Below, in pieces: positions 5,900 to 19,114 of a stretch of DNA of 64,000 nucleotides. Under the pieces are notes generated by a model. It was not told the origin of the DNA. It saw only the letters and a program-made list of their open reading frames with translations, and did no database searches. This stretch comes from Nonomuraea soli (lineage in GTDB: Bacteria; Actinomycetota; Actinomycetes; Streptosporangiales; Streptosporangiaceae). Made by a program: the position numbers and the translations under genes. The stretch covers positions 434,001-498,000 of the forward strand of contig NZ_JACDUR010000003.1 of NCBI RefSeq assembly GCF_013761175.1, read 5' to 3'. The stretch's first letter is position 1. Each line of letters starts with the position of its first letter.

Positions 5900-6008
5900 C
5901 CTGAACGTCCGTGCCCCACGGCAAACAGTCGGACGTGGCCGCGCGCCGTGACGTGACGGCGACAGGGTGCTAACACAGCGAGCACGAAGCGTCGCATATG
6001 GTGTTCAG

Positions 6009-6731
6009 ATGAAGCGCCCAGCTGCCCTGATGGCCCTGATCCTTGCGGCGGTCGCAGCCTGCAGCGCCGAGGAGCCGGTGGCATCGCCCACCCAGGCGCC
6101 CACCCAGGCGGCCACCACCGCGCCACCGCCGAGCCCAGCCCAGAGCGAGACCCCCACCGGCCCACCCGCCTTCACCTCGAAGGTGAGCGCGGTCAAGCGC
6201 GACGACGTGCCGTACTCCTGGCGCCCCGGCTGCCCGGTGCCGCTGAGCGGCCTGCGCCTGGTCACGCTCACCTACTGGGGTTTCGACGACAAGGCCCACA
6301 CGGGCGAGCTGGTCGTCAACAAGAGCGTCACCGACGACATCGTCACCGTGTTCAAGCAGTTGTACGGCTGGAAGTGGCCGATCGAGCGCATGGAGCTGGT
6401 CGATGTCTTCAAGGGCGACGACTTCGACTCGATCGACGCCAACAACACCTCGGCGTTCAACTGCCGGGCGGCGACCGGTTCGAGCAACTGGTCGAAGCAC
6501 GCCTACGGGCTGGCCATCGACATCAACCCGCAGCAGAACCCGTATGTCACGGCCGGCGGATCGGTGGCCCACGACAACGCGGAGGAGTTCAAGACCCGGC
6601 CGCTCGACGAGCCCGGCGTGATCAACGGCCGGGACCGGGTGGTCAGGGCGTTCGAGAAGGTCGGCTGGGAGTGGGGCGGCTACTGGTCGGGCACCAAGGA
6701 CTACCAGCACTTCAGCAAGGGCGGCGGCTGA
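6009..6731 (+). CDS. M15-family peptidase lipoprotein (D-Ala-D-Ala carboxypeptidase-like)
   Basis: A surface lipoprotein of about 240 aa. The start at ATG 6009 gives MKRPAALMALILAAVAAC, a signal peptide with lipobox A-V-A-A-C; the frame's upstream extension lacks this logic. A Thr/Pro/Ala-rich linker follows (residues about 20-55). The catalytic part shows SKHAYGLAIDINP, carrying the first zinc His and Asp of the M15 (VanY / peptidoglycan L-Ala-D-Glu) family, and the C-terminal DYQHFSK supplies the third zinc ligand. It is expected to trim peptidoglycan stem peptides outside the membrane. Confidence 0.88.
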   Translation: MKRPAALMALILAAVAACSAEEPVASPTQAPTQAATTAPPPSPAQSETPTGPPAFTSKVSAVKRDDVPYSWRPGCPVPLSGLRLVTLTYWGFDDKAHTGELVVNKSVTDDIVTVFKQLYGWKWPIERMELVDVFKGDDFDSIDANNTSAFNCRAATGSSNWSKHAYGLAIDINPQQNPYVTAGGSVAHDNAEEFKTRPLDEPGVINGRDRVVRAFEKVGWEWGGYWSGTKDYQHFSKGGG

Positions 6732-6750
6732 GCCGTACCCAGGGTCCCCG

Positions 6751-6948
6751 TCAGTCCTGCTGCTTCCTGCGCGCGATCATGATCGACAGCGAGCCGAGGG
6801 CGGCGCCGATCGCCATGCCGATGCCGATCCCGAGCGCCAGGTTGTCGAAGACGAGCCCGAGCGCCACCCCGATCGCGACGCCGCTGCCGATCATGGCGGG
6901 GAAGGCGGCGACGGTGGGGTTGGGCTGGGCGGGGTCGTTCTGGGTCAT
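6751..6948 (-). CDS. small glycine-zipper membrane protein
   Basis: A 65-aa protein with two hydrophobic stretches full of GxxxG spacing (AMIGSGVAIGVALG and ALGIGIGMAIGAALG) and a basic end (RRKQQD). ATG 6948 is chosen because it begins just before the first transmembrane segment; the longer frame would start at a TTG. It converges on the M15 gene and is divergent from the encapsulin operon, sharing its upstream region. Its function is unknown. Confidence 0.65.
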   Translation of the reverse strand: MTQNDPAQPNPTVAAFPAMIGSGVAIGVALGLVFDNLALGIGIGMAIGAALGSLSIMIARRKQQD

Positions 6949-7005
6949 GGAGAGATCTTCGCAATCTTGAGCCCCCGCCCCCAGTCGTCCCAATCATCGG
7001 CTGGA

Positions 7006-7021
7006 GATGACAACTGTCATC
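7006..7021. promoter_or_regulatory. perfect dyad upstream of encapsulin operon
   Basis: GATGACA-AC-TGTCATC is a 7+2+7 perfect inverted repeat, 57 bp before the encapsulin ATG and 57 bp before the divergent glycine-zipper ATG. Its length and position suit a dimeric repressor or activator of the operon. I do not recognise it as the site of a named regulator. Confidence 0.55.
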
Positions 7022-7077
7022 AAAAGCTTGCCCATCTGCTCAGAAGGCTCGCGTCATGGTCACGAGGGTGAAGCCTC

Positions 7078-8454
7078 ATGACAGAACAGAACCTTTCCAG
7101 TCTCAGCACAGCCGCGGCGCGGAATCTCGCCACCACCACCAAGTCGGTCCCGCAGATGCAGGGCATCTCCTCGCGCTGGCTGCTGAAGGCCCTGCCGTGG
7201 GTGGAGGTGTCGGGCGGCACCTACCGGGTCAACCGGCGGCTCAGCTACACGGTGGGTAACGGCCGCATCGAGTGCGTGAAGTCGGGCGCGACCGTGCGGG
7301 TGATCCCGCAGGAGCTCGGCGAGCTGCCGATCCTGCGCGGGTACGCGGACGAGGAGGTGCTCGCGGCGCTGGCCGACCGGATGCGCCAGGTGGAGTACGG
7401 CCCCGGCGACATGATCGTCCAGCCGGAGCAGGAGGTCGACCGCTTCTTCATCCTCGCCCACGGCAAGATCGACCGGCAGGGCACCGGGAAGTACGGGGAC
7501 CCGGTCTCGCTGGGCATCCTGTCGGACGGCGCCTACTTCGGCGAGCAGGCGCTGCTCGACGAGCACGGGGTGTGGGAGTTCGGCTTCCAGGCCGTCACTC
7601 CCTGCGTGCTGCTCTCGCTCTGCCGTCGCGACTTCGCCCTGATCGCGAGCGCCGCCGACGGGCTGCAGCGGCATCTGCGTTCCTTCCTCGACGCCGACGC
7701 CCCGGTGACCGACGCCTCCGGTGAGGCGGCGATCGAGATGGCGTCGGGCCACATCGGCGAGCCGGTGCTGCCGAGCACGTATGTCGCCTACGAGACGAGC
7801 CCGCGTGAGTACGAGCTGTCGGTCGCCCAGACCGTGCTCCGGGTGCACACCCGCGTCGCCGACCTCTACAACGAGCCGATGAACCAGGTCGAGCAGCAGC
7901 TGCGCCTGACCGTCGAGGCGCTGCGCGAGCGCCAGGAGCACGAGATCATCAACAACCGCGACTTCGGCCTGCTGCACAACGCGGAGTACGGCCAGCGCAT
8001 CTCGACCCGCACGGGTCCGCCCACTCCCGACGACATGGACGACCTGCTGGCGGTGGTGTGGAAGGAGCCGAGCGTCTTCCTGGCCCACCCGCACACGATC
8101 GCCGCGTTCGGTCGCGAGTGCAACAAGGCCGGGCTCTACCCGTCGACCGTGGAGCTGCTCGGCCGCGAGGTGCCCGCGTGGCGGGGTGTCCCGATCCTGA
8201 CCTGCAACAAGATCCCGATCAGCGAGGCCGGCATGTCGTCGCTCATCCTGATGCGTACCGGCGAGGCCGTCCAGGGTGTGGTGGGCCTGCACCAGACGGG
8301 GCTGCCGGATGAGTACGAGCCTGGGCTCAACGTGCGCTTCATGGGCATCAACGAGCAGGCGATCATGTCCTACCTGGTCAGCGCCTACTACAGCGCGGCC
8401 GTGCTGGTGCCCGACGCGCTGGGCGTGCTGGAGAACGTCGAGCTGGGCCACTGA
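7078..8454 (+). CDS. Family 2B encapsulin shell protein with CNBD-like insertion
   Basis: A 458-aa HK97-fold shell protein. The N-terminal arm (1-60) contains [15 protein letters not shown]. Residues about 75-205 are a cyclic-nucleotide-binding-domain-like β-roll ([23 protein letters not shown] and [12 protein letters not shown]). The shell domain then resumes at [20 protein letters not shown] (240 on) and runs to the end, including [14 protein letters not shown] and [18 protein letters not shown]. The FGEQALL turn is followed by [10 protein letters not shown], where the phosphate-binding Arg of true cAMP sites would be, so nucleotide binding is doubtful. It starts the plus-strand unit and ends 2 bp before the terpene synthase. 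In Family 2B systems the shell encloses a terpene cyclase, which matches this context. Confidence 0.93.
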
Positions 8455-8456
8455 CG

Positions 8457-10403
8457 GTGCGCCCCTTCGAGCTGCCGGACTTCTACCGGCCGTGGCCGCC
8501 CCGGGTCAATCCGCACGTCGAGGCGGCCCGGGCGCACGCCAGGACGTGGGCCGCCGAGCTCGGGCTGATCGACGCGGCGGTCTGGGACGCGGCCACGATG
8601 GACTCCATCGACCTGGCGCTGTTCGCCGCCTACTGCTTCCCCGACGCCGACCAGGGGTCGCTGGAGCTGATCACCGACTGGTACGTGTGGGGGTTCTTCT
8701 TCGACGACTGGTTCCTGGAGCACTACAAGCAGCACGGGGACGTCGAAGGGGCGCAGGCGTGGATCGCGAAGGCCCGGGCGTTCATGCCCCTCGACCTCGG
8801 CCGTGCCGTACCGGAGCCGGAGGACCCGGTTCAGGCGGCGCTGGCGGACCTGTGGGCGCGCACGGCGCCGGGGACCGGCGACGACTGGCGCCGCCGGTTC
8901 GCCGACGAGACCTTCGCCCAGCTCGGCGACGCCTTCTGGGAGCTGGAGAACCTCAGGGCCGGGCGGGTGCCGAACCCGATCGACTACCTGGAGCGCAAGC
9001 GCGGCCTGAGCGCGGGCCGCTGGGTGTCGACACTGGTGGAGCAGGTCGACAGGCTGCACCTGGCGCCGGAGACGGTGTCGTCGCGGCCGTTTCGGGTGCT
9101 GCGCGACACCTTCACGGACGCGCAGGTGCTGCTCAACGACGTCTTCTCCTACCAGCGTGAGGTCGAGGAGGAGGGCGAGGTCCACAACTTCGTGCTGGTG
9201 CTCCAGGACTTCCTCGGGCTCACGCCCCAGGAGGCGGCCGACACCGCCAACGACCTGCTGACCTCGCGCCTGCTGCAGTTCGAGAGCACGCTGCTCACCG
9301 AGGTGCCCGAGCTGGCCGAGCGGGAGCAGGTGGCCAGGCTGGCGTGCCGGTTGCAGGACATCAACGCGGGCTCGCACGAGTGGCACCTGCGGTCGAGCCG
9401 GTACATGAACGAGGGCACCCGCGGCGCCGACCCGTACGTGCCGATCTGGCGGTATCCGACCGGGCTCGGCACGTCGGCCGCCCGCCTGTGGGCAGGCCAC
9501 CGCCCGCTCGACCACCGCCCGCTCGACCACCGTCCGCTCGACCACCGCCCGCCGGAGGTCACCTTCCAGGCCAGGACCAGCCCGCACGCCTCTGCCGCCC
9601 GCAACGCGGCGGCAGCCTGGGCGAGACAGGTCGGCCTGCCGCCCAACCCCGACGCCGTCCAGCGCACGGCGTCGTGCCTCCCGGACGCCCCGCGTGAACG
9701 CCTGGAGCTGGTCGCCCAGTGGCAGGTCCTGCTGGCCGAGCTAAACACCCACCTGAACGGCTACAAGTCACGGCATGACCTGACCGGCGGCCGGCTCTTC
9801 CTGGAAAGGCTCCCCCGCTTCCTCGATCCTGACCCGCCCGCGCCGGTCAACCCCTTCGAGCGTGCCCTGGCCGACCTGTGGCCGCGCACCGCCTTCGCAG
9901 CGCGCGACCACGTGGCCGGCCATTTCGCCGACCTGGTCGCCGCCCGAGGGTGGGAGCTGGCCAACAGCGTCAGGCAGCGGGTGCCCGACGCGGTCGACTA
10001 CCTGGTCGTACGGCGGGGCGAGGGCACCGGGATGCTCCTGGACCTGCTGCAGTACGGCATGGCGCTGCCCCAGGACGAGCGTCCCGGCGGCGACCTGGCC
10101 GACTGTTTCGCCGACGCGGTCACCTCCCAGCGTGACCTGGCCGCCTTCCATCGGGCCGACCACAACAACGGCGTGCTGGCCGTACAACGCCTGCTGGAGT
10201 GCGAACCGACCGGCGCGGCGGCCATCGTGGGCGACCTGCGAGCGGCCCGCCTGGCGCAGTTCGACCGCCTGGCGCCCGGGTCGCCCCGCTACGCAACGGC
10301 CATGCTGGCCTGGCTGGCCGGGGAGCAGAGCTGGAGCCGGGCGCCCCGCCTCCCGGCAGGACCGACCGGGCTGGGCACGAGAGGGGTGAAGGCATGGCTC
10401 TGA
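8457..10403 (+). CDS. two-domain terpene synthase (germacradienol/geosmin-synthase-like), second domain degenerate; likely encapsulin cargo
   Basis: A 648-aa class I terpene cyclase homologue of the bacterial germacradienol/geosmin synthase architecture. The N-terminal domain is intact: the Asp-rich motif DDWFLE (83-88) and the NSE motif NDVFSYQRE (227-235) should bind the Mg-diphosphate of farnesyl diphosphate. An interdomain linker holds a tandem HRPLD repeat (348-364). The C-terminal half (about 375-648) aligns with the first (compare RALADLWPRT and AALADLWART), but the Asp-rich site reads LAELNTHLNGY and the NSE region reads SQRDLAAFHRADHNNG, so neither metal site survives. The product is therefore unlikely to be geosmin by the usual two-step route. 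GTG start 2 bp after the encapsulin stop; its end overlaps the next gene by 10 bp. Confidence 0.9.
   Translation: MRPFELPDFYRPWPPRVNPHVEAARAHARTWAAELGLIDAAVWDAATMDSIDLALFAAYCFPDADQGSLELITDWYVWGFFFDDWFLEHYKQHGDVEGAQAWIAKARAFMPLDLGRAVPEPEDPVQAALADLWARTAPGTGDDWRRRFADETFAQLGDAFWELENLRAGRVPNPIDYLERKRGLSAGRWVSTLVEQVDRLHLAPETVSSRPFRVLRDTFTDAQVLLNDVFSYQREVEEEGEVHNFVLVLQDFLGLTPQEAADTANDLLTSRLLQFESTLLTEVPELAEREQVARLACRLQDINAGSHEWHLRSSRYMNEGTRGADPYVPIWRYPTGLGTSAARLWAGHRPLDHRPLDHRPLDHRPPEVTFQARTSPHASAARNAAAAWARQVGLPPNPDAVQRTASCLPDAPRERLELVAQWQVLLAELNTHLNGYKSRHDLTGGRLFLERLPRFLDPDPPAPVNPFERALADLWPRTAFAARDHVAGHFADLVAARGWELANSVRQRVPDAVDYLVVRRGEGTGMLLDLLQYGMALPQDERPGGDLADCFADAVTSQRDLAAFHRADHNNGVLAVQRLLECEPTGAAAIVGDLRAARLAQFDRLAPGSPRYATAMLAWLAGEQSWSRAPRLPAGPTGLGTRGVKAWL
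9498..9551 (+). repeat. 15-bp tandem repeat in terpene-synthase linker
   Basis: CACCGCCCGCTCGAC is repeated three times (9498-9512, 9513-9527, and 9528-9542 with one C-to-T change), followed by a partial fourth copy. It stays in frame and encodes H-R-P-L-D units in the linker between the two synthase domains. The near identity of copies points to recent expansion by slippage. Confidence 0.85.
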
Positions 10404-11272
10404 GCACGACGGCCGCGCGCAACCTGGCCACCACGACGAAGACCCCGCCCGTCAACGCGTCGGCCACACCCGGCTGGCTGCTGCGGATCATGTCGTGGGC
10501 CGAGGTACCCGGCGGCGTCTACCGCCGCACCAGCACGGTCCGCCGCACGATCGCCCGCCACGGCAGCAGCCAGCCGGGCGTGATCGTGGCGGCGGGCCAC
10601 CACGGCGAGCCCGCCCTGCCGGGGATGTACGTCGAGTACGGCTCACCTCCGCGCGAGTACGAGCTGTCGGTCGCCCAGACCGTGATGCGCGTCCACAACC
10701 GCGTCGACGACCTCTACAGCGACCCGATGGACCAGTACGAGCAGCAGCTCAGGCTCACCGAGGAGGCGCTGAGGGAGCGGCGCGAGCACGAGCTGATCAA
10801 CAACCCGGCGTTCGGCCTGCTCCACGCTCCCCCGCCCCGCCACCGGGTGACCGCCAGGACGGGCCCGCCCACGCCCAGCGACCTGGACGCGCTGATCTGC
10901 AAGCAGACCCGCCCGCGTTACCTGCTCGCCCACCCGCGGGCGATCGCCGCGTTCGCCCGCCAGTGCAACCGCCACGGGATCGTTCCCGGCACCGCCGAGC
11001 TCGACGGCCGGCGGCTGCTGAGCTGGCGCGGGCTGCCGCTGCTGCCCTGCGACAAGCTCCCCGTCGCCGCCGACCTGACCACGTCGATCCTGGTCGTCCG
11101 GCCGGGCGAGAAGCGTCAGGGCATCGTGGGGTTGCGTCCCGAGGGCGGGCTGAAGATCCACAAGCTGGGCACGGACGACCGAGCGGTAACCGGCTACCTG
11201 GTCAGCGACTATTTCTCGCTGGCCGTACTGATCCCGAACGCCGTCTGCGCTCTGGACGGGGTTCAGCTCTAG
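10394..11272 (+). CDS. second encapsulin shell protein, lacking the CNBD insertion
   Basis: A 292-aa HK97-fold shell protein clearly paralogous to the product of 7078-8454. It shares the arm [15 protein letters not shown], the segment [19 protein letters not shown] (86 on), EQQLRLTEEALRERREHEL and RTGPPTPSDLDAL. Where the first shell protein has about 130 residues of CNBD, this one has a short linker (ARHGSSQPGVIVAAGHHGEP), so it resembles a Family 2A-like minimal shell. The ATG is inside the end of the terpene-synthase gene (10-bp overlap) and preceded by GAGGGGTGAAGG. Co-translation suggests a mixed shell built from two subunits. It ends VQL without a long tail. Confidence 0.92.
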   Translation: MALSTTAARNLATTTKTPPVNASATPGWLLRIMSWAEVPGGVYRRTSTVRRTIARHGSSQPGVIVAAGHHGEPALPGMYVEYGSPPREYELSVAQTVMRVHNRVDDLYSDPMDQYEQQLRLTEEALRERREHELINNPAFGLLHAPPPRHRVTARTGPPTPSDLDALICKQTRPRYLLAHPRAIAAFARQCNRHGIVPGTAELDGRRLLSWRGLPLLPCDKLPVAADLTTSILVVRPGEKRQGIVGLRPEGGLKIHKLGTDDRAVTGYLVSDYFSLAVLIPNAVCALDGVQL

Positions 11273-11282
11273 CCTGGTGACC

Positions 11283-12119
11283 ATGGCAGCGAGTGACGGT
11301 GACGGCTGGGCCACGTGCGCGCAGGGGCACACCCACTGGGGGGTGCACGGCGCCTCGGGACTGCTCGTCGTCCACCACGACGCCGCCGGCGTGCCGTACA
11401 TCCTGATGCAGAAGCGGGCCCTGTGGAGCCACCACGGCGGGACCTGGGGATTGCCCGGCGGGGCCCGCGACAGCCACGAGGACCCCATCGCCACGGCGAT
11501 GCGCGAGGCGCGGGAGGAGGCGGCGCTCGACAAGCATGACCTGCGGGTCAGCGGCGTCTACCTCGACGACCACGGCGGGTGGACCTTCGACACGGTGATC
11601 GCCGAGTCGGGCGGGCTCATCGACGCCCGCCCGGCCAACGCCGAGAGCACGGCACTGCGTTGGGTGCCGCTGGGCGAGGTGACGGGCAAGCGGCTGCATC
11701 CCGGCTTCGCGCACACGTGGGTGACGATCCAGGACGTGCTGGCGCCGCAGACACTGGTCCTCGACGTGGCCAACATCGTCGGGGCGCGGGCCGAGCACGG
11801 GTGGTGGAGGGACCGGGCGGGTGCGGCCTCGCGGCTGCTCACCGAGGTCGCCGCCGCCCGGCTGCGGCACCCGGTGCTCGATCAGTGGTTCCCGCGGATC
11901 GTGGCGGTCGTGGAGGGAGCGGCTCGCGGGGTGGAGCCGGTGCCGGGCGTGGAGGTCGTCGCCGCTCAGGCGAGCGGCGACGACACGATCGTCGACGTGG
12001 TGCGAGGCGTGCCCGGATGGCAGGGGGTCACGGTCGTGACTGCGGATCGCGGGCTGCGCGACAGGGTGTCGGACAGGGCTCGGACCGAAGGGCCGAAATG
12101 GCTGATCAACCAGCTCTGA
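11283..12119 (+). CDS. Nudix hydrolase fused to NYN/PIN-like nuclease domain
   Basis: A protein of about 278 aa. The N-terminal Nudix box is GGARDSHEDPIATAMREARE followed by EAALDK (the usual G-x5-E-x7-R-E-x2-E-E pattern). The C-terminal half has LVLDVANIVGAR, WWRDRAGAASRLL, SGDDTIVD and VTADRGLRDRV, which look like the acidic residues of NYN/PIN-type nucleases. GTG 11277 or ATG 11283 could start it; both are within 10 bp of the second encapsulin stop, so it is probably cotranscribed. Similar Nudix-NYN proteins occur elsewhere in actinomycetes, so its link to the terpene shell is uncertain. Hydrolysis of a diphosphate is expected, but the substrate is unknown. Confidence 0.8.
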   Translation: MAASDGDGWATCAQGHTHWGVHGASGLLVVHHDAAGVPYILMQKRALWSHHGGTWGLPGGARDSHEDPIATAMREAREEAALDKHDLRVSGVYLDDHGGWTFDTVIAESGGLIDARPANAESTALRWVPLGEVTGKRLHPGFAHTWVTIQDVLAPQTLVLDVANIVGARAEHGWWRDRAGAASRLLTEVAAARLRHPVLDQWFPRIVAVVEGAARGVEPVPGVEVVAAQASGDDTIVDVVRGVPGWQGVTVVTADRGLRDRVSDRARTEGPKWLINQL

Positions 12120-13125
12120 CCAGGGCTTCCGCCGCCGCCGACTCGATCTCGGCCGCCTGACCGACCAGCGCGGCGATCTCCTCCGGCGGCTTCCCGGCGA
12201 GCGCCGCCGAGGCGACCGCCGACCACACGTCACCCGCCTCCCGATACAACCAGGCGTCGGCTCCCACCTCGTCGAGGAAGTCGGCGTACAGCGGCCGCGT
12301 CGCCCCTGGTGTGGTGTACTCCAGCTCCAGGCACGCGTGCAGGCGCCGCAGCGGCACGGCGAGATCGTCCCACCGCCTGCCCCACGACGGCAGCTGGGCG
12401 GCGAGCTTGCGCATGCCGGAGAGCCCGAAGTTGACGTCGAAGTTGTTGCCCATCACCGGGCCGGTGAGCTTGGCCGCCGTGCCGGCGACGGCCTCGGCGA
12501 CCAGCGGCTCGCCGGAAGCCTCGCCGGTGACGGTGATGAGCTGGTGCCTGTCCTTCTTCACGCCCGACCAGGCGGCCATGAAGTCCTGCAACGGGAGCTC
12601 GTGGACCGTGTCGTCGTCCACGGTGACCACGTCGCCCGAGATGCCCGTCACGGCGACGTCGACCGGATCCGGGAACGGCATCGAAGGCCGCCAGGGCAGC
12701 TCGTAGCGCCCCACCCTGCACAACGCCCCGCCGTACTCATCGACGGCCGCCCGCAGGTTGCGCTCGGCCACCCGCGGCGACCCCGTGCGCTTCGTCTCGT
12801 ACGGCACGCGCAGGCGGGTGAGCGCGAGCGGGATCATCGGCTCCGGATGGGCCTGGCAGACGATGGTCAGCATGGGGGCGTGGCCGGAGTACTCGAACAC
12901 GAAGTACATGAACCCGATGCCGCCGCCGAGCCCGAGCAGCAACGCCTCGGAAGGGCCGCCGCCGAGGAAACGCCGCAGCAGGGCGGACTCGTGGTGGTGC
13001 CGCGCCGGCCCGGCGGCGTCGCCGTCGACGTGGCGGGCGGCCACGGTCCAGTTCTCACCGGTTCGCGCCATGCGGGCCCGGATCGCGCGCGTGCGGGCTC
13101 GGTGCCTGGCGTTGTCAGTCATCAT
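12106..13125 (-). CDS. BtrH-N / DUF4872-like protein
   Basis: A 339-aa protein. After a basic leader (residues 1-35) it has HHHESALLRRFLGGGPSEALLLGLGGGIGFMYFVFEY-type sequence in residues 43-79, characteristic of the BtrH N-terminal domain, and a C-terminal region with NNFDVNFGLSGMRKLA and TPGATRPLYADFLDE like DUF4872. BtrH itself transfers an acyl group in butirosin synthesis through a Cys; here the first conserved position reads HHES without Cys, so catalysis is doubtful. The leader motif ARTGENWTVAARHV is a short element I associate with many unrelated actinomycete proteins. GGAGG lies 5 nt before the first of two ATGs. It overlaps the Nudix gene by 14 bp, tail to tail. Confidence 0.72.
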   Translation of the reverse strand: MMTDNARHRARTRAIRARMARTGENWTVAARHVDGDAAGPARHHHESALLRRFLGGGPSEALLLGLGGGIGFMYFVFEYSGHAPMLTIVCQAHPEPMIPLALTRLRVPYETKRTGSPRVAERNLRAAVDEYGGALCRVGRYELPWRPSMPFPDPVDVAVTGISGDVVTVDDDTVHELPLQDFMAAWSGVKKDRHQLITVTGEASGEPLVAEAVAGTAAKLTGPVMGNNFDVNFGLSGMRKLAAQLPSWGRRWDDLAVPLRRLHACLELEYTTPGATRPLYADFLDEVGADAWLYREAGDVWSAVASAALAGKPPEEIAALVGQAAEIESAAAEALVRAG

Positions 13126-13253
13126 GAGGTCCTCCAGCGGAGTCCCACGTTCTCCGCGAGGTCATGGTGACAGGCTCGCACAGGGTCCACACGCTGCGTC
13201 AGGGACGGCTTGTCCTCGGTCGCCTGATCGGGTGACGACGTGGGCGCCGGTGA

Positions 13254-13868
13254 TCAGGCTCGGAGTCGGGCAGGCGTGTACGGCCGACCCCGACGGTACC
13301 CGCCGACGCGGATCGCGGCAACGACCAGCCACCCGAGGTCGGCCGCGAGCGCGATCCGCTCGGTCACCCCCAGGAGCGGCGGCAGCGACCGGGTGGCCAT
13401 CGCGTCGACGAGGGTGACCAGGAAGAGCACCAATCCGACCACGACGGCGACGGTCATGCCCGAGAGCACGGGATCACGCGGCAGAGCCCGGGTGACCACG
13501 ATGGCGGCGATCATGAGGGCGAGAAGCGCCACCCACGCGGCCAGGCCGTGCACGGTCTCCGAGAGCGAAGGGTTGTCCCACCGGCCAGGAGGGTCAGCGG
13601 GGAAGATCGCCGCCACGAGGATGCCCGCCGACCAGAGGGCGAGCAGGCCGGTGCCCAGCCGGCCGAGGCCGGCGCGGGCGACCATGGCGGTGAGGGCCGC
13701 CGATCCCAGCGCGATGGCCGCCAGCCCGACGGTGACCAGCCAGCCGGCGTCGGTGTTGACGAAACGGCTGACCGTCTCCTCGACGGGGCTCATGCCGGTG
13801 TTGACGATGTCGGAGAGGGCGAAGGCCAGGGCTCCGACGACAGAACCTGTGATCACTGCTTGCTTCAT
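13254..13868 (-). CDS. DUF998-type membrane protein
   Basis: A 204-aa integral membrane protein with about six hydrophobic segments. The first reads VITGSVVGALAFALSDIVNTG, with an early Pro/Asn region (NTGMSPVEETVSRFVNT) as in DUF998 proteins, and a later AAIFPADPPGRWDN loop, a DUF998 hallmark. The role of the family is unknown. No operon partner lies close; the STAS gene upstream ends 36 bp before its ATG. Confidence 0.7.
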   Translation of the reverse strand: MKQAVITGSVVGALAFALSDIVNTGMSPVEETVSRFVNTDAGWLVTVGLAAIALGSAALTAMVARAGLGRLGTGLLALWSAGILVAAIFPADPPGRWDNPSLSETVHGLAAWVALLALMIAAIVVTRALPRDPVLSGMTVAVVVGLVLFLVTLVDAMATRSLPPLLGVTERIALAADLGWLVVAAIRVGGYRRGRPYTPARLRA

Positions 13869-16228: not shown

Positions 16229-17188
16229 ATGAGAGCAATAGTGATCACCGAGGCCGGCGGGCCAGAGGTGCTGGAGTGGCAAGAGGTGCCCGAACCCACG
16301 GTCCGACCTGGGGAAGTACTCATCGAGGTGACCGCGTCGGCGGTGAACAGGGCCGACGTCATGCAGCGCCAGGGTTTCTACAATCCGCCCCCGGGAGACT
16401 CCCCCTACCCGGGTCTCGAATGCTCCGGAGTGATCATTCAGGGCGGTTACGGATTCGAACCCGGTGATCAGGTGTGCGCCTTGCTCGGCGGGGGCGGATA
16501 TGCCGAGCGGGTCGCCGTTCCGTGGGAGCAGGTGATGCCGATCCCGGAGAACATTTCCATAACGGATGCCGCGGGGCTGCCCGAGGTGGTGTGCACCGTG
16601 TGGTCGAACGTCTTCATGCTCGCCCGCCTTCGCCGCGGCGAGACGCTGCTCGTGCACGGCGGCGCCAGCGGCATCGGCACGATGGCCGTCCAGCTCGCCA
16701 AGGCCCACGGCGCGCACGTGGTCGCCACCGTCGGCTCGCACCTCAAGGGCGCGGCCGTCTGCGCGCTCGGCGCCGACGAGGTGGTCAACTACCGCGAGGA
16801 GGACTTCTCCGAGAAGGTCCGGGCGGACGTGATCCTCGACATCATGGGCGCCAAGTACCTGGCGGGCAACGTCCGCGCCCTCAAGACCGGCGGCCGCCTG
16901 GTCGTCATCGGCCTCCAGGGCGGCATCAAGGCGGAGCTCGACCTGCTCACCCTGCTCAACAAGCGCGCCGCCGTCCACGGCACCACCCTGCGCTCCCGCC
17001 CGGCCGACGAGAAGGGCGCCGTCTGCCGCGGCGTCGTCGAGAACGTCTGGCCCCTGCTGTCGGCGGGAGCCGTCCGGCCGGTGGTGCACACGACGCTGCC
17101 GATGGCGCAGGCCGCCGAAGCACACCGCCTGCTCGATTCCGGGGAACACGTCGGCAAGATCCTGCTATTGGCATCCTCCCCGGCATGA
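16229..17188 (+). CDS. NADPH:quinone oxidoreductase (PIG3-like, zinc-free MDR)
   Basis: A 319-aa medium-chain dehydrogenase/reductase. NRADVMQRQGFYNPPPG and SPYPGLECSGVI are signatures of the PIG3/quinone oxidoreductase branch, and the Rossmann motif is LLVHGGASGIGTMAVQLAK. Structural zinc cysteines are absent. It probably reduces quinones or enones with NADPH. ATG 16229 (MRAIVITEAGGPEVL) fits the family; ATG 16193 would add 12 atypical residues. The last residues LLLASSPA differ from the usual ending GKILL plus a few residues, and a TnpB element begins right there, so the tail may have been rewritten by the insertion. Confidence 0.9.
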   Translation: MRAIVITEAGGPEVLEWQEVPEPTVRPGEVLIEVTASAVNRADVMQRQGFYNPPPGDSPYPGLECSGVIIQGGYGFEPGDQVCALLGGGGYAERVAVPWEQVMPIPENISITDAAGLPEVVCTVWSNVFMLARLRRGETLLVHGGASGIGTMAVQLAKAHGAHVVATVGSHLKGAAVCALGADEVVNYREEDFSEKVRADVILDIMGAKYLAGNVRALKTGGRLVVIGLQGGIKAELDLLTLLNKRAAVHGTTLRSRPADEKGAVCRGVVENVWPLLSAGAVRPVVHTTLPMAQAAEAHRLLDSGEHVGKILLLASSPA

Positions 17189-18474
17189 TCACCGAGGATC
17201 CTCCGCGTCGCCGTGGAGGGCTTACTGCTTCCGCCTACGACACACCTGCGTCGTAGCTTTCGGGCGCAGCCGAGGTCGGGGGCTCCGCTCCCGGTCTTAC
17301 GTGCCCTCCACAGTCGTTTCGCCGTGTCCGGCCAGCCCGCGGCCACGGTCATGCCGATCATGCGCTGCCCCTCGAGCAGAACATTGATCGCGGCGGCGAT
17401 GTCGCGATCATGATGTTCCCCGCACGAGGGGCAGTCCCACTCCCTCATCTCCAGCGAAGACTTGCCGATCCGCCAGCCGCAACAGGGGCACAGCTGGGAT
17501 GACGGATATGACCTTCCGACGACGACGAGCCGGCGGCCCCACTTCTTGGCTTTGTAGGTCAGCAGGGAGCGAAACACTCCCCACCCTGCGTCGTGAACGG
17601 ATTTCGCCAGTCGCCCGCGTGCCAGGCCCCGCACGGCCAGGTCCTCGATGCATACCGTTTGGTTCTCACGGACGATCGAGGTAGTGATCTGATGCAGGAA
17701 GTCGTGACGGGCATCGCGCACCTTGGCGTGCTGGCGTGCGAGTTCGGCGCGAGCGCGCTCCCGGTTCTTCGAACCCTTCTGCTTGCGGGCCAATGATCGC
17801 TGGAGTCGTGCGATCCTTTTCTCCCTGCGACGCAGCCACCTGGGGTTGGAGATCTTCCGCCCCGTCGACAGGACCGCGTAATGAGTCAACCCTAGATCGA
17901 TCCCTATCGCGGGCTCGAGTTCGGGCGATGCCTGGGCTTCGCCGCCGACCTCGACGACGAAGGACGCGAAGTATCTTCCGGCCGCGTCCTTGATCACCGT
18001 GACGCTGGACGGTGACGTCGGCAGCTCACGCGACCAACGAACCTCCACCACCCCGATCTTCGCCAGAGACAACCCACCATCCCTGGTCACCTTGAACGCA
18101 TGGCCCACGAACCGGGCCGCCTGCCGGCGGTCATGACGGGACTTGAACGCCGGCGGCCCAACGGGAACGCCCTCACGCTCGCCAGAAAGCGAGCCGAAGA
18201 AGTTTCGATACGCCGCGTTCAGATCTCGCACTGACTGTTGCAGCACCACCGCCGACACCTCGGCCAGCCATGATCGCTCTGGCGTCTTCTTCGCTGCGGT
18301 CAGGATGAGGCGCTGGATCTCGGCGTCTCCGACGAACGGCAGCCCTGCCCGGCGGGCAGCCTTTCGAGCCGCCAGCGCGTCGTTCCACACGACCCGTGCG
18401 CATCCGAATGTCCGCGCCAACCGTCCGCGTTGTTCTGCGTCGGGGTACAGGCGGTAGTTGTAGCGCAGCTTCAC
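17189..18474 (-). CDS. tnpB: TnpB RNA-guided endonuclease
   Basis: A TnpB nuclease of about 400-425 aa. RuvC motif I GIDLGLTHYAV, motif II VCIEDLAVRGL, the zinc ribbon CPCC...CPSC and motif III HDRDIAAAIN are all intact, so DNA cleavage guided by a right-end (omega) RNA is plausible. GTG 18474 (VKLRYNYRLYP) follows GGAGGTGGGG. No stop codon ends the frame at the element edge: it stays open through the oxidoreductase gene in antisense down to 16789, giving a nominal 561-aa product whose last part is not TnpB-like. The coordinates given cover the recognisable protein only. TnpB kept intact without TnpA is common and can be maintained by its own cutting activity. Confidence 0.85.
17235..17256 (-). 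ncRNA. candidate omega-RNA hairpin at the tnpB 3' end
   Basis: CTACGAC and GTCGTAG pair over 7 bp around an 8-nt loop, inside the end of the tnpB frame and close to the element edge. In IS200/IS605 elements the guide RNA overlaps the 3' end of tnpB and runs to the right end, with the guide just beyond it. Position and structure fit that; the RNA's real borders are not visible. Confidence 0.4.
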
Positions 18475-18487
18475 CCCCACCTCCACA

Positions 18488-18551
18488 TTCGAACACACTA
18501 TCAAGTTACCCCCGGCGATTTTTCGAACACCGTGGAGATCTTTGCGTCTCC
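18488..18551. repeat. left-end repeats and hairpin of the TnpB element
   Basis: TTCGAACAC occurs at 18488-18496 and 18522-18530 as a direct repeat. GGAGA (18534-18538) and TCTCC (18547-18551) form a hairpin with an 8-nt loop. Subterminal hairpins are expected at IS200/IS605 left ends. Confidence 0.45.
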
Positions 18552-18607
18552 AATCAACGTCTGCTTGACAGAGCCGTGAACTGCGGATCTTCGGTAACGT
18601 GAAACCT

Positions 18608-19114
18608 ATGAACGCTGAGGACAACAACACCCCCCACATCGTGGTGGTTGGGCCTGACTTCAAGAGTGGCGAGGAAGAAGGCGAGGAGCGTTCGATCACC
18701 AACCTGGTCGAGCAGCCCGCCAAGGTGATGCGCATCGGCAGCATGATCCGTCAGCTGCTCGAAGAGGTGCGCGCCGCTCCCCTCGACGAGGCCAGCCGCA
18801 AGCGCCTGAAGGAGATCCACGAGAGCTCCATCAAGGAGCTCGAGGACGGTCTGGCGCCCGAGCTGGTCGAGGAGCTGGAGCGGCTGTCGCTGCCGTTCAC
18901 CGACGACAACGGCGCCCCGCCGAGCGAGTCCGAGCTGCGCATCGCCCATGCCCAGCTGGTGGGCTGGCTCGAAGGGCTCTTCCACGGCATCCAGACGACG
19001 CTGTTCGCGCAGCAGATGGCGGCGCGGGCCCAGCTGGAGCAGATGCGGCGGGCTCTGCCCGGCGGCATCCAGCAGCAGGCGCCCGAGGGCCGTGGCTCCG
19101 GGCCCTACCTGTAG
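18608..19114 (+). CDS. bpa: bacterial proteasome activator Bpa/PafE
   Basis: A 168-aa ring-forming, ATP-independent activator of the 20S proteasome. The helical core starts around VEQPAKVMRIGSMIRQLLEEVR and contains LGWLEGLFHGIQTTLFAQQM-like sequence. The C-terminus is GSGPYL, matching the hydrophobic-Tyr-X motif that docks on the proteasome α-ring (Mycobacterium PafE ends GQYL). ATG 18608 is preferred to GTG 18599; TAACGT at 18595-18600 could be a -10 giving a leaderless transcript. It converges on the HAD gene with a 10-bp overlap. Confidence 0.9.
   Translation: MNAEDNNTPHIVVVGPDFKSGEEEGEERSITNLVEQPAKVMRIGSMIRQLLEEVRAAPLDEASRKRLKEIHESSIKELEDGLAPELVEELERLSLPFTDDNGAPPSESELRIAHAQLVGWLEGLFHGIQTTLFAQQMAARAQLEQMRRALPGGIQQQAPEGRGSGPYL

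Follow-up and report, generated by a model that had tools for sequence, protein, structure and literature searches.

A Family 2B encapsulin unit of Nonomuraea soli with a CNBD on one of its two shell proteins: a candidate hemi-gated mixed shell around a germacradienol-type terpene synthase

Why would an encapsulin unit with two shell genes keep a CNBD on one shell protein and carry none on the other? The question is raised by a locus in the 10.1 Mb genome of Nonomuraea soli, which we analyzed in a window of 64,000 nucleotides (contig NZ_JACDUR010000003.1, positions 434,001 to 498,000; coordinates below are those of the window). Three genes follow one another on the plus strand: Enc1 (7078..8454), a CNBD-bearing Family 2B encapsulin shell protein of 458 aa; a two-domain terpene synthase of 648 aa with a GTG start (8457..10403); and Enc2 (10394..11272), a CNBD-less shell protein of 292 aa. 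A sequence-only reading of this DNA had proposed a coupled plus-strand unit, and for these three genes the ORFs, the sizes of 458 and 292 aa and the coupling were all confirmed. Of the spacings it gave, the 2 bp between Enc1 and the synthase and the 10-bp overlap of the synthase with Enc2 stood, but the 2 bp given between Enc2 and the following Nudix gene proved to be 4 bp to a GTG at 11277, or 10 bp to an ATG at 11283. The Enc2 ORF is open from 10199 in the ORF list and its start, the ATG at 10394, was picked by homology; it is the sole Enc2 start within the 60 bases searched. With its two shell genes in a single unit and less than 10 kb apart, the locus counts as a two-component encapsulin system. 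A promoter scan gave a single match, on the minus strand, and a terminator scan gave none. Further along the window, an IS605 OrfB/TnpB-type protein of ~650 residues (OrfB_IS605, Cas12f1-like TNB and HTH domains) is encoded at 16789-18744 on the minus strand.

Enc1 matched the SrpI-like Pfam model at 449 bits and cNMP_binding at 48 bits (residues 105-187), has an E-loop insert of 174 aa and scored 740 bits on the NCBIfam model encap_f2b (cut-off 400), which places it in Family 2B. In Enc2 the SrpI-like HK97 domain is complete (321 bits), the E-loop insert measures just 23 aa and Pfam gives no CNBD match. Its scores of 387.9 bits on encap_f2b and 284.9 bits on encap_f2a (cut-off 380) are under both cut-offs, so that, of the two proteins previously read as encapsulins, the family models name Enc1 and neither would name Enc2. 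We considered Family 2A for Enc2, which agrees with that family in having no CNBD, but its score does not support the assignment (284.9 against 380), although a grouping with 2A proteins was not rejected on trees (see below). At diagnostic motif 1 Enc1 reads VVWK, of the Enc1 type (VWK); Enc2 has CKQT at this position, which is not RRRK, though it is of Enc2 length. The CNBD-less second shell is a stronger anomaly than the placement of the synthase gene or the lost synthase active site; the sequence-only reading had noted it but had not ranked it as unusual.

A sequencing error or gene fragment was rejected as the source of the CNBD-less Enc2, as the form is common to 23 protein clusters (292-334 aa, 60-96% identity). 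Uninterrupted full-length matches to Enc2 were present in at least 14 of the 298 genomes in the family sample, comprising the window's genome, eight related ones and five others. The eight related loci (L001-L008), found by means of their Enc2, belong to seven Herbidospora species and Actinomadura parmotrematis, and every one keeps the order Enc1, synthase, CNBD-less Enc2, an order whose absence from all relatives would have counted against the proposed unit. Their Enc1-synthase gap is 2-3 bp in seven cases and 10 bp in Actinomadura, and a start giving a 16-bp synthase/Enc2 overlap is available in all eight. The five other loci are arranged as Enc1-cyclase-Enc2 (three), Enc1-Enc2-cyclase (one) and Enc1-Enc2 (one, L046, which lies at a contig end and showed no cyclase across its 12 kb). 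Each of the 14 loci read has another shell gene upstream of the CNBD-less one; this partner is complete and CNBD-bearing in 13, and the contig end truncates it in L046. A 2B-like shell protein of Saccharopolyspora spinosa (P0024, 411 aa) lacks most of its CNBD and carries a duplicated stretch internally, a structure that may be an assembly artefact.

The E-loop insert was measured in 57 loci, of which 54 two-shell loci were kept, including two of the window's genome; L094 (single-shell), L046 (cut by its contig end) and L114 (a repeat of L003) were left out. The Enc1 insert spans 173-179 residues (sd 0.94) and that of Enc2 23-205 residues (sd 63). We made a CNBD profile of 12 other 2B proteins, and Enc2 scored lower on it than Enc1 in 52 of the 54 loci (exceptions, L108 and L113), and the same held for 39 of the 41 loci with a CNBD on Enc2. 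Enc2 bears no CNBD at all in 13 of the 54 loci, all with a cyclase in view; as similarity to the window's Enc2 decided which loci entered the survey, this proportion is biased and is not a frequency, and related genomes, not independent of each other, contribute to it. A CNBD is still present on Enc2 in 31 of the 44 cyclase-bearing survey loci and in all ten without a cyclase, to which the dropped L046 would be an exception. Motif 1 reads VWK in all 37 readable Enc1 proteins and in none of the 39 readable Enc2 proteins (54 each).

One of the surveyed loci, L016 (G000:C1:867001-886000), is a second, canonical unit in the same genome and consists of a prenyltransferase, Enc1, a two-domain cyclase and Enc2. 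Its Enc2 (12050-13447 of that locus) fell short of the Pfam CNBD cut-off (17 bits against 27.5), which its Enc1 passed with 51 bits; on our own CNBD profile the two scored 129 and 230. This Enc2 would thus appear to be an intermediate in the erosion of the domain. P0261, from Nonomuraea sp. NPDC050663, is nearly identical to it, with end branches of 0 and 0.015. The L016 locus also bears on two earlier claims. A Family 2B pair with terpene-cyclase cargo was rightly recognized in the window but is not new, since this second locus has one and two-shell Family 2B operons, with geosmin-synthase-like cargo carrying GPTGLGTSAAR motifs, were already published (PMC8346489). Nor is a synthase gene between the shell genes unusual, as had been suggested, for L016 shows it and a survey of 503 two-component operons describes prenyltransferase-containing operons in which terpene cyclases can lie between the shell genes (PMC12407261).

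Did the window's Enc2 lose a CNBD, or did its lineage never have one? On the latter explanation, Enc2 of this type would come from a lineage close to Family 2A that predates the insertion and acquired its 2B shell partner later. A first FastTree, made with two 2A rows, a simpler model and without the Enc2 of L048, favored it by placing the window's clade (clade A) outside the sampled 2B proteins; this tree was superseded by one of 70 shell cores, inferred under a mixture model over 266 columns with the E-loop excluded, in which clade A (13 rows, support 100/100) is nested inside Family 2B. Support for the nesting was 97/89 in a set of 55 rows and 100/99 in one of 62 rows. The remaining CNBD-less proteins, two of which (P0027 and P0100) come from short metagenome contigs, were placed separately, and for three the tree gives a CNBD-bearing sister with starred support, which also argues against a lineage that never had the domain. 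A single clade for all 22 CNBD-less rows was rejected (p-AU 0.0005), as was a single clade for the nine outside clade A (p 0.038, the group having been defined from the tree itself), and parsimony counted seven changes among the 2B rows. The 2B model rates Enc2 higher (388 bits) than the 2A model does (285), and its partner, cargo and gene order are all of the 2B-system type. A family search of 60 genomes of the phylum found no 2A shell over the cut-off. A tree with clade A constrained to group with six 2A proteins was not rejected (p-AU 0.162), so that loss of the CNBD within clade A itself is, as judged from these alignments, likely rather than proven, and we regard descent from a CNBD-less ancestor as improbable.

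Another reading is that Enc2 is a decaying, dispensable paralog without any remaining part in the shell. The median dN/dS over the 21 pairs of seven Herbidospora species is 0.084 for Enc1 and 0.240 for Enc2, about three times higher, and the lower constraint on Enc2 also fits a partly dispensable subunit; the position of Enc2 under both curated shell cut-offs and the weak CNBDs common in the surveyed Enc2 proteins point the same way. Yet a value of 0.24 is well below 1, the Enc2 frame is open in all nine clade loci (window and L001-L008), and 49 invariant columns remain when 41 shell proteins (28 without a CNBD) are aligned, all of which make decay a rather unlikely account of Enc2. In an AlphaFold2 model (mean pLDDT 75.4) the core of Enc2 is confident and most of the chain after residue 90 is of good confidence. 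Its E-loop, at residues 40-56 and 58-87, has pLDDT <50 and may no longer make inter-subunit contacts, a point against a mixed shell. In alignments the E-loop region exceeds those of SrpI and MMP-I by ~9 residues, and a GSxQP-type segment is common to the clade-A E-loops read.

The enzyme between the shell genes has two Terpene_syn_C_2 stretches (Pfam), domain 1 at about residues 1-333 and domain 2 at about 373-627. Domain 1 aligns over residues 2-344 with germacradienol/geosmin synthase (PDB 5dw7, 5dz2) at 353 bits and has both metal motifs, DDWFLE and NDVFSYQRE. The loss of the second active site, claimed from the letters, was borne out, for domain 2 has neither the Asp nor the NSE motif, and both are also lost in the Herbidospora proteins and in the protein of Nonomuraea sp. 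NPDC050663, the best protein-search match to the synthase (92% identity). The Actinomadura synthase retains DD and NDLRSHAKE in domain 2 and P0155 is intermediate, so that the decay can be traced within the group. Terpene_syn_C_2 scores for domain 2 follow the same course, at 57.6 for the window, 55.4 for Herbidospora solisilvae and 113.8 for Actinomadura, against 173.2 and 177.5 for two canonical copies, the former from the same genome. The whole protein scored 574.9 on NCBIfam f2_encap_cargo3 (cut-off 1200) and, with metal motifs in domain 1 only, is not a geosmin synthase by its motifs. As the C-terminal domain of geosmin synthase converts germacradienol to geosmin (PMC10881772, PMC7192455), geosmin is not the expected product. 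The layout is nevertheless that of geosmin-synthase-like Family 2 cargo, with two cyclase domains, a central motif, YPTGLGTSAAR, between them and a C-terminal copy of GPTGLGT type, GPTGLGTRGVKAW. Over the 21 Herbidospora pairs the median dN/dS is 0.153 for domain 1, 0.280 for domain 2, 0.396 for the linker and 0.217 for the 19-codon tail with the second GLGT motif, which indicates that domain 2 is kept under purifying selection, though it is constrained less than domain 1. A short in-frame repeat of RPLDH units lies in the linker (~9498-9549); P0121, a relative with 92% identity, has fewer such units. No homolog of the prenyltransferase of the canonical locus was detected in the window or in L001-L008 (E<=0.001).

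Across geosmin-synthase-type two-shell systems, we see about an even chance that the two shell genes are under opposite selection, such that the CNBD of Enc1 is fixed and that of Enc2 is eroding and repeatedly lost, leaving pores that would be partly gated; the window's clade would then be the reduced end point of this trend, with an Enc2 devoid of the CNBD, no prenyltransferase gene and a second synthase domain turned to non-catalytic loading or docking.

The protein that follows Enc2 (11277..12119, plus strand) had been read as a Nudix-NYN member of the unit. Only Nudix models matched it in Pfam (E<=0.01), NYN was not confirmed, and its membership of the unit was wrong. A search of 18 other genomes of the genus found the Nudix gene in each of them (65-72% identity), and the sequence read around it, 1.5 kb per side (less in L070, at a contig end), had no match to an encapsulin or the synthase; nor was the gene found within 8 kb of the eight related encapsulin loci. 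On these grounds a role as cargo or regulator was rejected; it is a flanking gene common in the genus, possibly now read through from the encapsulin unit. A BtrH_N and DUF4872 protein (12106-13125, minus strand) converges on it with a 14-bp overlap, and a homolog of this protein also sits beside the Nudix gene in one of the 18 same-genus loci (L080).

The other flank of the unit is an M15-type carboxypeptidase gene (5967..6731, plus strand; Pfam Peptidase_M15_4, 88 bits). In ten of the 18 same-genus loci an M15 gene is directly upstream of the Nudix gene, with 9-36 bp between alignments; in the remaining M15-Nudix cases there is one gap of 106 bp, one of ~740 bp and one weak M15 match, and five of the 18 have no M15 gene upstream within the 1.5 kb read. 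The M15 and Nudix alignments of L064 and L069 are separated by 12 and 16 bp, and in both the M15 alignment contains an in-frame stop. Five loci were read further, two of which had MFS, M15, Nudix and ParA genes ordered as in the window's flanks and three Nudix and ParA with neither M15 nor MFS. Among the matches listed for 39 same-genus genomes, a best match of clade-A strength (E <1e-120) occurred only in the window's own. Since M15 and Nudix adjoin without an encapsulin in ten of the 18 loci, the Enc1-synthase-Enc2 block is apparently an insert of ~4.5 kb between them in this lineage, with putative ends at 6732..11276. The GC content of the insert is 0.709 and that of both flanks 0.694, which is no sign for or against a foreign origin. 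Inside the insert, a 65-aa glycine-rich, membrane-protein-like ORF (6751-6948, minus strand) reads away from Enc1, and its matches among the fetched loci are copies of the same place only.

What, then, would the two shell proteins build? Enc2, with a complete SrpI-like HK97 domain that is modelled mostly well after residue 90, could form its own 2A-like homomeric shell beside a standard 2B shell of Enc1, one or both holding the synthase, and the Enc2 of S. lydicus does self-assemble (PMC12407261). Such separate shells are unlikely in our view, given the tight coupling and pairing of the genes in the window and the eight related loci, and the report, in the same study, that S. lydicus Enc1 alone formed no shells and that mixed shells had the narrowest size distribution. 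In that organism Enc1 and Enc2 co-assemble, with an Enc1 share that varies up to ~60% and irregular tiling, and the CBDs sit above two-fold pores of 14 by 60 A, which they partly occlude (PMC12407261).

We consider it fairly probable that the window's unit encodes a hemi-gated mixed Enc1/Enc2 shell around a germacradienol-type sesquiterpene synthase. Enc1, with a CNBD, and Enc2, without one, would most likely co-assemble into one 60-subunit shell, inside which the synthase would be held by its central and C-terminal GPTGLGT-type motifs. Because the CNBDs of published 2B shells sit over the two-fold pores, a mixed shell would have three pore states, with two CNBDs, one or none; if tiling were random at 60:40, simple arithmetic on that assumption gives ~36% of pores with two CNBDs, 48% with one and 16% with none. 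Farnesyl diphosphate and the sesquiterpene product might cross the permanently bare pores more easily, and Enc1 would keep whatever control the CNBD confers. According to PMC12407261, no cyclic-nucleotide binding by the 2B CNBD has been reported, and gating is therefore itself a hypothesis. As the synthase retains the first active site only, its product would be a germacradienol-type sesquiterpene and not geosmin, and domain 2 may be kept as a structural and cargo-loading arm.

The class to which this pair belongs could not have appeared in the published survey, since PF00027 and PF19307 were demanded of each shell and operons with shells <400 aa were removed as fragments (PMC12407261); the window's pair falls outside that definition (PF00027 on both shells, at least 400 aa each). 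The census thus missed a whole class through length and domain filters, and no CNBD-less partner shell is described in the titles and abstract openings of the encapsulin literature searched. Natural pairs in which one subunit has no CNBD and its partner has one are a ready-made deletion series that bears on the role of this domain in Family 2B, and prompt two questions: does the CNBD gate the two-fold pores, and why has only one subunit kept it? Engineering would gain a simple means of adjusting pore openness from a subunit that may join a mixed shell with no external domain.

The closest known system, S. lydicus Sl-Enc1/Sl-Enc2, is like the window in having two shell genes per operon and the Enc1/Enc2 difference in the A-domain, and in two-component Family 2B operons the cyclase may likewise sit between the shells, there accompanied by a prenyltransferase (PMC12407261). 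In the S. lydicus mixed shell both subunits are CNBD-bearing, whereas the window's Enc2 has no CNBD. The synthase shares the inter-domain GPTGLGTSAAR-type motif and its C-terminal copy with the geosmin-synthase-like cargo of Family 2B (PMC8346489), but its domain 2 has no metal motifs and its locus no prenyltransferase homolog. With germacradienol/geosmin synthase (PDB 5dw7, 5dz2) the likeness lies in domain 1 and both its metal motifs, and the difference in domain 2, which has lost both motifs and scores 57.6 bits against 173.2 for the canonical copy. Finally, Enc2 resembles the Family 2A shells SrpI and MMP-I in having no E-loop CNBD and differs from them in its encap_f2a score (284.9 against the cut-off of 380), in its partner and cargo, and in an E-loop that is ~9 residues longer.
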